Position numbers and translations under genes: made by a program. The notes under the pieces are model-generated. The model was not told where the DNA came from. It ran no database searches and saw only the letters and a program-made list of their open reading frames with translations. 64,000 nucleotides of DNA from Candidatus Poribacteria bacterium (GTDB lineage Bacteria > Poribacteria > WGA-4E > WGA-3G), in contig JAAXGN010000044.1 of the NCBI GenBank assembly GCA_012267415.1, positions 1 through 64,000 of the forward strand. The letters run 5' to 3'. Shown here one piece after another: positions 23,680-64,000 of the stretch (positions are counted from its first letter, which is position 1; each line of letters begins with the position of its first letter).

Positions 23680-23764
23680 ATAGTAGAATGTCCAGTCTTC
23701 TCTTGTAGGTCGGGTTTCGCTTCGCTCTACCCGACCTACAATGTAATAATAGACAATCCAATAG
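23680..23764. repeat. MITE-like element sharing outer ends with family 1 but a different core
   Basis: Ends read TAGTAGAATGTCC and AGACAATCCAATAG, matching the ends of the family 1 elements. The core is a different perfect palindrome, GTAGGTCGGGTTTCGCTTCG and its complement, at 23704-23741. It lies between the stop of the NHL gene and the start of the dehydrogenase gene. Confidence 0.65.
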
Positions 23765-47086: not shown

Positions 47087-47284
47087 TTACTTTTCGGGTG
47101 GTTTTAGCATATCCTTAAGTCTATTTACCAATATTGGATCATCTAAGATGTCTTTTAGCAGCCATTTTCCTCCCCAACTAATTCCTAATGAGATGGCTAC
47201 TGCAAGCATTACTACGGCTAAGATTATACCCGATATATAGATCAAAACTACGATAATGAGTTCGGCAAAAGACGGTGCAAACAT
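47087..47284 (-). CDS. Small single-pass membrane protein
   Basis: 65 residues with one long hydrophobic stretch (AELIIVVLIYISGIILAVVM continuing to LAVAISLGIS) followed by an amphipathic Lys/Pro-rich tail (RLKDMLKPPEK). An AGGAG site nine bases before ATG supports translation. No family recognised. It could work with the following ATPase, but the proximity is the only evidence. Confidence 0.5.
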   Translation of the reverse strand: MFAPSFAELIIVVLIYISGIILAVVMLAVAISLGISWGGKWLLKDILDDPILVNRLKDMLKPPEK

Positions 47285-62536: not shown

Positions 62537-62842
62537 GTGAAATCAAATTTTTTCAGTACTGCAAATATAGGAAACTTGCCTGATTATTGTATAATGCAAG
62601 TAAATGATAAGAAAATTAGACTTTTTGATGTCGTTGCTCTCACACATGACCTGCCTGAACATAATCTGCGGCGAGGACAGGTCGGCACAGTTGTCGAGAT
62701 GCTTTCAAATGATGATGCTTATGAAGTTGAATTTAGTGACAGAGATGGACGCACTTACCAATCACTCGGATTTCGGGCACCGCAACTAATGGTACTCCAC
62801 CACGAACCAGTGAAAAACCCATCAAACCCTATTAGCGAATAA
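62537..62842 (+). CDS. DUF4926 protein
   Basis: 101 residues starting at GTG 62537, supported by AGGAGG six bases upstream. The core is IRLFDVVALTHDLPEHNLRR followed by GQVGTVVEML and YEVEFSDRDGRTYQSLGF, the DUF4926 SH3-like beta pattern. Members often stand beside DUF6883 genes in small toxin-antitoxin-like loci, but no DUF6883 gene is recognisable here. It may be a solitary antitoxin or immunity protein. Confidence 0.8.
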   Translation: MKSNFFSTANIGNLPDYCIMQVNDKKIRLFDVVALTHDLPEHNLRRGQVGTVVEMLSNDDAYEVEFSDRDGRTYQSLGFRAPQLMVLHHEPVKNPSNPISE

Positions 62843-62869
62843 CTACGCACAAGATAAGGAACGACGCCA

Positions 62870-63343
62870 ATGACAAAAACCATTGAAAAAGTCCAAAAAA
62901 CCACTACGACTCCCAACGAGGAAAGACTCAAAAAACTCAAACAACTTTATCCAGAATGTCTAATAGAAGGCGAAGTTGATTTAAAAAAACTGAAAGATTT
63001 CTTGTCTCTTGAAGATAGGGAAGATAATGGCGACGAACGTTACAGTTTTTCATGGGCAGGGAAAAAAGTGAGTGATTTAAAACAGTACGTAGAAAAACGT
63101 AAAAAGCGAGATCCAGAGTTTGCAGAAAATTACGAAAAAGGGTATTTAGAATTCAAACTCGGTGTCCTTCTCCGACAAGCTCGACAAGAAGCTGGGTTAA
63201 CCCAAGAAGATATGGCACTAAAGCTGAATACTAAGAAATCTGCTATTTCAAAAATTGAAAACCATGCTGAGAATGTTACGCTTTCAACTTTGAGAAAATA
63301 TGCAGAAGTTGTCGAAAAGAAAATACACTTCTCAGTAGGATAA
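62870..63343 (+). CDS. HigA-like HTH regulator with an N-terminal segment resembling a type III DNA methyltransferase
   Basis: 157 residues. The C-terminal 70 (YVEKRKKRDPEFAENYEK then LGVLLRQARQEAGLTQEDMA and SAISKIENHAENVTLSTL) are a HigA/XRE-type HTH antitoxin. The N-terminal 16-66 read RLKKLKQLYPECLIEGEVDL, KKLKDFLS, then ERYSFSWAGKK. This closely resembles the opening of type III restriction Mod subunits (LKELFPEC ... G-K-I-D-F-D-x-L ... Y-x-F-x-W-x-G-K). No methyltransferase catalytic motifs follow. The combination in one open frame suggests a gene fusion at a former Mod gene, or a shared fold I cannot distinguish by eye. No HigB toxin is adjacent. Confidence 0.7.
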   Translation: MTKTIEKVQKTTTTPNEERLKKLKQLYPECLIEGEVDLKKLKDFLSLEDREDNGDERYSFSWAGKKVSDLKQYVEKRKKRDPEFAENYEKGYLEFKLGVLLRQARQEAGLTQEDMALKLNTKKSAISKIENHAENVTLSTLRKYAEVVEKKIHFSVG

Positions 63344-63358
63344 TTAAGGAACAGCACC

Positions 63359-64000
63359 ATGAAATACTACATCCCTTACCTCACATTACTACTCTCTTTT
63401 ACGCTCTTTGCAACTGCAGCAGACCTCAGCAAAGACCCAATCCGAACCCTACTACCTTTTGATGCAATCCCTGCCATCACCAAACCGCAATTTGTTTCTG
63501 CCATTGAGGCAAGATTAGATGATGATGCTCCTGTGATTGGCGTAACTTTCAATGGCGAAAGCCATGCCTACTCACTCTATCTACTAAACGGTCACGAGAT
63601 CGTCAACGATGTTGTCGGCGGAAAGAAAATCGCAACGACATGGTGACCACTCTGCAACACGGCTATCGTGTATAGTCGGGAACTTGAGGGTAAGACCTAT
63701 ACCTTCGGTGTCAGCGGAAAACTGTGGCGCGATGCGTTGCTAATGTATGACCATCAAACCCGTTCCCTCTGGTCACATATCACTGGAGAAGCGATTCAAG
63801 GAAAACTCAAAGGAAAGAAACTGAAACCACTCGTCTCTATGCCACAAATCGCGTGGAAAGCATGGAAAAAGAACTATCCTGATACAAAAGTACTTTCAGT
63901 TAATTTCAGAGGGAAAATGGTAGAAAGTCTAAGTCATGACGCTTATCAGAGGTATCATAAAAGCCAAGACACAGGTGTGAGTGGAACAGAATACACGGAT
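63359..64000 (+). CDS. DUF3179-type secreted protein with an in-frame TGA at a conserved Cys; candidate selenoprotein, 3' end outside the window
   Basis: A signal peptide (MKYYIPYLTLLLSFTLFATA) leads into the DUF3179 pattern: PVIGVTFNGESHAYSLYLLN, then TTW-[TGA]-PLCNTAIVYSRE, YTFGVSGKLWRDALLMYDHQ, SLWSHITGEAIQGKLKGKKL, and YHKSQDTGVSG. In the family the motif is W/Y-C-P-L-C-N-T/S-A; here the first Cys codon is TGA (63644-63646, residue 96), giving a U-x-x-C redox-like pair with Cys99. The frame stays open for the remaining 118 codons with full family similarity. A SECIS-like hairpin begins just after the TGA. Read as Sec the protein is intact; read as stop it is a 95-residue fragment. A point mutation of TGC or TGT to TGA is the alternative. 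AAGGA precedes the ATG. The 3' end is cut by the window. Confidence 0.6.
63647..63679 (+). promoter_or_regulatory. Possible bacterial SECIS element
   Basis: Immediately after the in-frame TGA the RNA can fold into a two-part stem. A lower stem pairs CCACT (63647-63651) with AGTCGG (63674-63679, one bulged C). An upper 5-bp stem pairs ACACG (63657-63661) with CGTGT (63667-63671). The apical loop is GCTAT, with G as its first base. Position, a loop starting 15 bases after the TGA, and a G at the loop start are close to the bacterial SECIS pattern. The same bases encode conserved residues, so the fold could be accidental. Confidence 0.4.

Follow-up and report, generated by a model that had tools for sequence, protein, structure and literature searches.

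A DUF3179 protein of Candidatus Poribacteria with a predicted selenocysteine in a U-P-L-C motif

Results

The end of the window, i.e. the whole stretch of 64,000 nucleotides of Candidatus Poribacteria DNA that was analysed, holds the first part of a gene encoding a DUF3179 protein, a TGA codon within its frame and a hairpin directly behind this codon (Table 1). The ATG start codon at 63359 is preceded by AAGGA at 63346-63350, as judged by eye. The open reading frame upstream of the TGA encodes 95 amino acids, and another 118 codons are open from the TGA up to the window end, in agreement with the earlier note. Beyond the window, the frame continues to a TAA at contig positions 64493-64495, giving 378 codons of which this TGA is the only in-frame stop. 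The read-through protein matches PF11376 (DUF3179) with a score of 265.5 bits against a gathering score of 27 bits, and the match spans the TGA, both sides of it being matched, and reaches the end of the domain. Thus the view of an otherwise continuous DUF3179 frame interrupted by one TGA is confirmed, and no decay is found downstream of position 64000, where the frame is intact up to its TAA and the PF11376 match is complete. Translation and aligned homologues both place the TGA exactly where the earlier note had put it, at the first conserved Cys of C-P-L-C, which gives a motif of the UxxC/T type; the Cys homologues mostly have C-P-L-C or C-P-E-C at this position. The signal peptide that had been proposed is matched, by eye, by a hydrophobic, signal-like stretch at the N-terminus.

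Table 1. Features of the predicted selenoprotein gene, in window coordinates
Feature	Position	Strand	Basis
DUF3179 gene, predicted selenoprotein; codons 1-214 of 378, continuing to a TAA outside the window	63359..64000	+	frame, PF11376
TGA codon 96, read as Sec96	63644..63646	+	frame, relatives' codons
U-P-L-C motif, Sec96 to Cys99	63644..63655	+	translation, alignment
Signal-peptide-like hydrophobic N-terminus, residues 1-20	63359..63418	+	translation, by eye
First of two homologous DUF3179-domain repeats, residues about 57-180, bearing the UPLC	63527..63898	+	hhalign
Bacterial SECIS-type apical hairpin	63660..63678	+	folding, conservation, published rules

Selection on both sides of the TGA was compared in 44 UPLC genes. 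With the 13 codons behind the TGA excluded, the median dN/dS of 77 moderately diverged pairs was 0.11 upstream and 0.15 downstream, and the latter value therefore indicates that the downstream part is selected as protein in the same frame. Frames were set by TAA and TAG, and three genes (L029, L031 and L056) were trimmed at a TGA behind the domain that was taken as their natural stop; the statement that Sec genes contain no other stop is valid only within these frames and with this trimming.

The TGA recurs throughout the lineage. DUF3179 was detected in 53 of 59 genomes, the own genome included, and the 65 distinct hits from this set comprise 47 with TGA, 16 aligned Cys homologues with TGC or TGT at the Sec column and 2 without the site, so the relatives are by no means all of the Cys type. 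At the order level (49 genomes, two of which, G004 and G046, gave no hit and one, G021, only a fragment lacking the site), the TGA form is present in 45 of the 46 genomes whose DUF3179 covers the site. In one of these (G041) it is a fragment; three genomes (G040, G042 and G047) hold both Sec and Cys forms, and G048 has only Cys forms. At the phylum level, 74 of 84 genomes have DUF3179 and 68 have a TGA inside the match. Two class-level genes (L076 and L077) and one at the phylum level (L157) read UHLC, also with a TGA. A scan of GTDB genome contigs returned 60 loci, 57 of them from Candidatus Poribacteria, and the nearest named hits of the window gene, 90-95% identical, belong to this group as well. 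All 56 named Candidatus Poribacteria loci that cover the site have TGA, a count that leans to the Sec-type subfamily, because the scan relied on two peptide patterns that were derived from the Sec-type alignment and lie clear of the TGA, and that partly repeats genomes of the order-level set. The 44 genes used here and below were picked by WUPLC and are all-TGA by choice, and the fair counts are those by genome and by named locus. Left out of the sets of 44 and 16 were a contig-end fragment (L078) and two hits without the site (L085 and L086), while L076 and L077 were counted apart.

Outside the phylum, both Candidatus Neomarinimicrobiota loci found (L149 and L150) carry a TGA-bearing DUF3179, followed by a compensated version of the hairpin with the same loop as in Poribacteria. 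The single haloarchaeal locus (Halosegnis, L151) has TGT at the site. When 46 proteins (29 with Sec and 17 with Cys) were placed in a tree, those of the Sec type came to lie on one side of a branch with support 94/86; the tree was midpoint-rooted and the program warned of long branches. This is consistent with the Sec forms among the sampled proteins having arisen once, but does not prove it.

The SECIS-like hairpin that had been noticed just after the TGA was located 14-32 nt past it. Its 7-bp stem (63660-63666 with 63672-63678, CGGCUAU and AUAGUCG) closes a 5-nt loop, CGUGU (63667-63671), at a distance of 20 nt from the TGA. The bacterial SECIS rules given in the Fig. 2 legend of PMC13188914 are a loop of 3-9 nt, a stem of 4-16 bp, a G among the first two loop nucleotides, a spacing of 16-37 nt and an MFE of at most -7.5. 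The hairpin agrees with all of the rules found there, having its G at loop position 2, and the 51 nt that contain it fold with an MFE of -13.3 kcal/mol. The loop CGUGU is found in 51 of 52 Sec genes and all 7 stem pairs in 47 of 52, the gene L157 being an exception with 5 pairs kept and a different loop. In the 16 Cys homologues tested, a set to which L151 does not belong, only 1 to 3 of the 7 pairs are found and the SECIS hairpin is absent in every case.

The same region is also constrained at the level of codons. Among 153 conserved-residue columns of the 44 UPLC genes, the only ones with a single codon are +5 (ACG), +7 (ATC), +8 (GTG) and +9 (TAT), all within the hairpin; outside the hairpin region none of 137 such columns is codon-fixed and the mean normalised codon entropy is 0.77. 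Three pairs have changed on both sides, in 12 cells, a value reached by none of 500 shuffles (23 distinct sequences). The number of pairs with changes on both sides was itself not beyond shuffles (59 of 500 reach it), nor was that of further pair types (496 of 500). Slid control stems were 17-43% paired versus 95% for the true stem, and when the window peptide was re-drawn with synonymous codons, about 1.3% of the draws kept all 7 pairs. Folding energy of the single sequence was tried as proof of a SECIS and dropped, since that of a 65-nt stretch was unremarkable against shuffles (z = -0.63); for this reason we rely on conservation and covariation. Within the window, nine in-frame TGAs are preceded by at least 40 and followed by at least 90 open codons, and three of them have a hairpin under the scoring rule used here. 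The TGA at 63644 has the top score (15.5), yet the hairpin alone is not decisive here because an AU/GU-rich one at 23680 on the minus strand reaches 15.0. The U-x-x-C motif occurs only at the TGA at 63644 among these nine contexts.

The genome of the DUF3179 gene (5.46 Mb in 170 contigs) encodes a complete selenocysteine machinery, all four genes exceeding their curated cut-offs. Profile searches gave matches for selA (590 bits), selB (353 bits) and selD (366 bits), and the tRNA-Sec encoded by selC (RF01852, 77.7 bits) lies at the 3′ end of selB, its match beginning at 47118 and the selB frame ending at 47127-47129. Moreover, selD is a second Sec gene of the same genome. Its in-frame TGA at 2397 (L014, minus strand; G000:C157) lies in the motif KCAG-U-ASK, and the 7-bp stem and CGGGU loop behind it are similar in shape to the DUF3179 hairpin; PMC13188914 counts selenophosphate synthetase with the motif UxxK among the verified selenoproteins. 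Of the 68 genomes of the phylum that have a TGA-bearing match, 63 have SelA over the cut-off, versus 8 of the 16 others (Fisher p 0.0002), an association that is only indicative as the genomes are related. The five remaining TGA genomes (G006, G010, G068, G069 and G079) are drafts, and SelA fragments are present in G068 and G079.

The two DUF3179 repeats are homologous, with a probability of 99.3% in hhalign of the halves of 23 relatives, and are predicted to form a tandem of Rieske-like beta folds. In the predicted structure, the UxxC position falls in a turn that joins two strands; a model of the N-terminal part within the window alone had a mean pLDDT of 66, too weak to build on. Besides Sec96, the read-through protein has one Cys. 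When the two repeats were compared as profiles with Rieske ferredoxins encoded in this genome, neither matched (probability 0.2% for the N-repeat and 0.9% for the C-repeat). Elsewhere in this genome (G000) there are nine PF00355 Rieske matches, and the DUF3179 gene is not among them. A search for solved homologues by sequence returned only five weak matches (E 0.14 or worse), lying over or beside a collagen-like stretch, and no NCBIfam model for DUF3179 matched. The collagen-like stretch, a Gly-X-Y run of 33 aa just past the window (contig 64055-64153; L011:4056-4154), is placed in the turn after VIGVQV of the second repeat and measures 15-60 aa in other genes. Of the 17 genes from the genus, 12 carry such an insert, as do three from a sister genus (L158-L160; named loci L103 and L144); the remaining UPLC genes of the 65-hit set lack it.

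The surroundings of the gene were surveyed at 57 loci through the 14 largest neighbour clusters, among which no clear operon partner was seen. The commonest neighbour, short-chain-dehydrogenase-like by eye, lies on the opposite strand at 46 of the 57 loci and is not beside the DUF3179 gene of the window; some co-directional families are found 2-3 kb away in 22-32 loci. Upstream of the window's gene, at 62537-63343, there are a DUF4926 gene and an HTH_3 antitoxin-like gene; at 13 of the 57 loci, upstream ORFs fall into one cluster with the former.

Discussion

Taken as a whole, the locus very probably encodes a DUF3179 selenoprotein of Candidatus Poribacteria, apparently exported, with Sec96 in a UPLC motif that may be redox-active. 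SelB with Sec-tRNA(Sec) would bind the hairpin just past the UGA at 63644, selenocysteine would be placed at residue 96, forming U-P-L-C, and translation would continue to residue 378; the signal-like N-terminus seen by eye suggests that the protein is exported. The Sec-Cys pair would then cycle between selenol/thiol and selenenylsulfide and may serve in electron transfer or in reduction of peroxides or disulfides. As the protein has a single other Cys and no CxH/CxxH cluster motif, it is the UxxC turn that would act as redox centre. A redox role for this exported selenol/thiol pair is our best guess, with about as much to be said for it as against it.

Could UPLC instead be chiefly a metal-binding site? 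Such a role would be compatible with Sec decoding, CxxC motifs often bind metals, and 27-30 of 30 DUF3179 sequences retain H79, E80, N83, D84 and D131, a conservation similar to that of the motif itself. However, the replacement of Cys by Sec is typical of redox-active Cys, and many of the UxxC families tabulated in PMC13188914 are redox proteins; we therefore regard a mainly metal-binding site as doubtful, though not far-fetched, and retain the catalytic redox pair as the preferred role.

As to the TGA itself, it is almost certainly decoded as selenocysteine, as argued by the Sec machinery, the lineage-wide TGA, the conserved and covarying hairpin and the purifying selection downstream, and none of the findings speaks directly against such decoding; the selenoprotein claim of the earlier note is thus strongly supported. 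The presence of the TGA within the DUF3179 frame in many genomes could also reflect its reassignment to another residue in this lineage, or read-through without Sec. This is very improbable: the genome has the machinery for Sec, the hairpin accompanies the TGA-bearing genes and not the Cys-type ones, and TGA seems to be an ordinary stop in the window because 9 of its 38 non-overlapping ORFs of at least 200 aa (mechanical ORFs) end in it. Even though a TGA is one base away from TGC or TGT and this is a single draft genome, a decayed gene with a true stop, or a sequencing or assembly error, is refuted for practical purposes by the conservation of the TGA in 45 of 46 order-level genomes and 56 of 56 named loci, besides the selection on both sides of it and the PF11376 match that stays intact to the domain end.

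With TGA read as selenocysteine, many Poribacteria genomes would be corrected, as a gene caller taking it for a stop would split the DUF3179 gene in two, and selenocysteine use would be established across the phylum (TGA-bearing match in 68 of 84 genomes). The predicted Rieske-like fold would offer the first structural lead for the DUF3179 family. Poribacteria are known mainly from sponges. Perhaps, and this is an improbable idea, DUF3179 represents a duplicated Rieske-type fold in which a Sec-Cys pair has taken the place of a lost iron-sulphur site, the collagen-like arm in the second repeat of some Poribacteria allowing the secreted protein to work within, or attach to, the matrix of the sponge host, so that it would be an extracellular antioxidant or redox tool of the symbiosis.

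The earlier note's idea of DUF3179 as a possibly new family of selenoproteins does not stand: the family is known, since DUF3179/PF11376 with the motif UxxC/T appears in selenoprotein tables of both PMC9312934 and PMC13188914. PMC9312934 attributes its entry to Zhang & Gladyshev 2007 (its reference 63), a work that, by its title in that reference list, concerns the deltaproteobacterial symbiont of the worm Olavius algarvensis. Neither review was found to mention Poribacteria by name. In the literature searched, no paper pairs "Poribacteria" with "selenoprotein"; two pair it with "selenocysteine". Possibly new are the use of Sec throughout this lineage, the predicted tandem Rieske-like fold without Rieske ligands and the collagen-like insert.

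Compared with Rieske [2Fe-2S] ferredoxins (e.g. 2qpz), the DUF3179 protein is without the CxH...CxxH cluster ligands. The Cys-type DUF3179 proteins (L024, L025, L082 and others, and the archaeal Halosegnis L151) share its domain, yet have Cys at the site, encoded by TGC or TGT, and the 16 of them tested, L151 being outside this number, have no SECIS hairpin. The closest known counterparts are the DUF3179 selenoproteins entered in the two tables, with which the protein shares the Pfam family, the UxxC motif and a predicted Sec, and from whose tabulated description it differs in its lineage-wide use in Poribacteria and in the collagen-like insert of part of that lineage.
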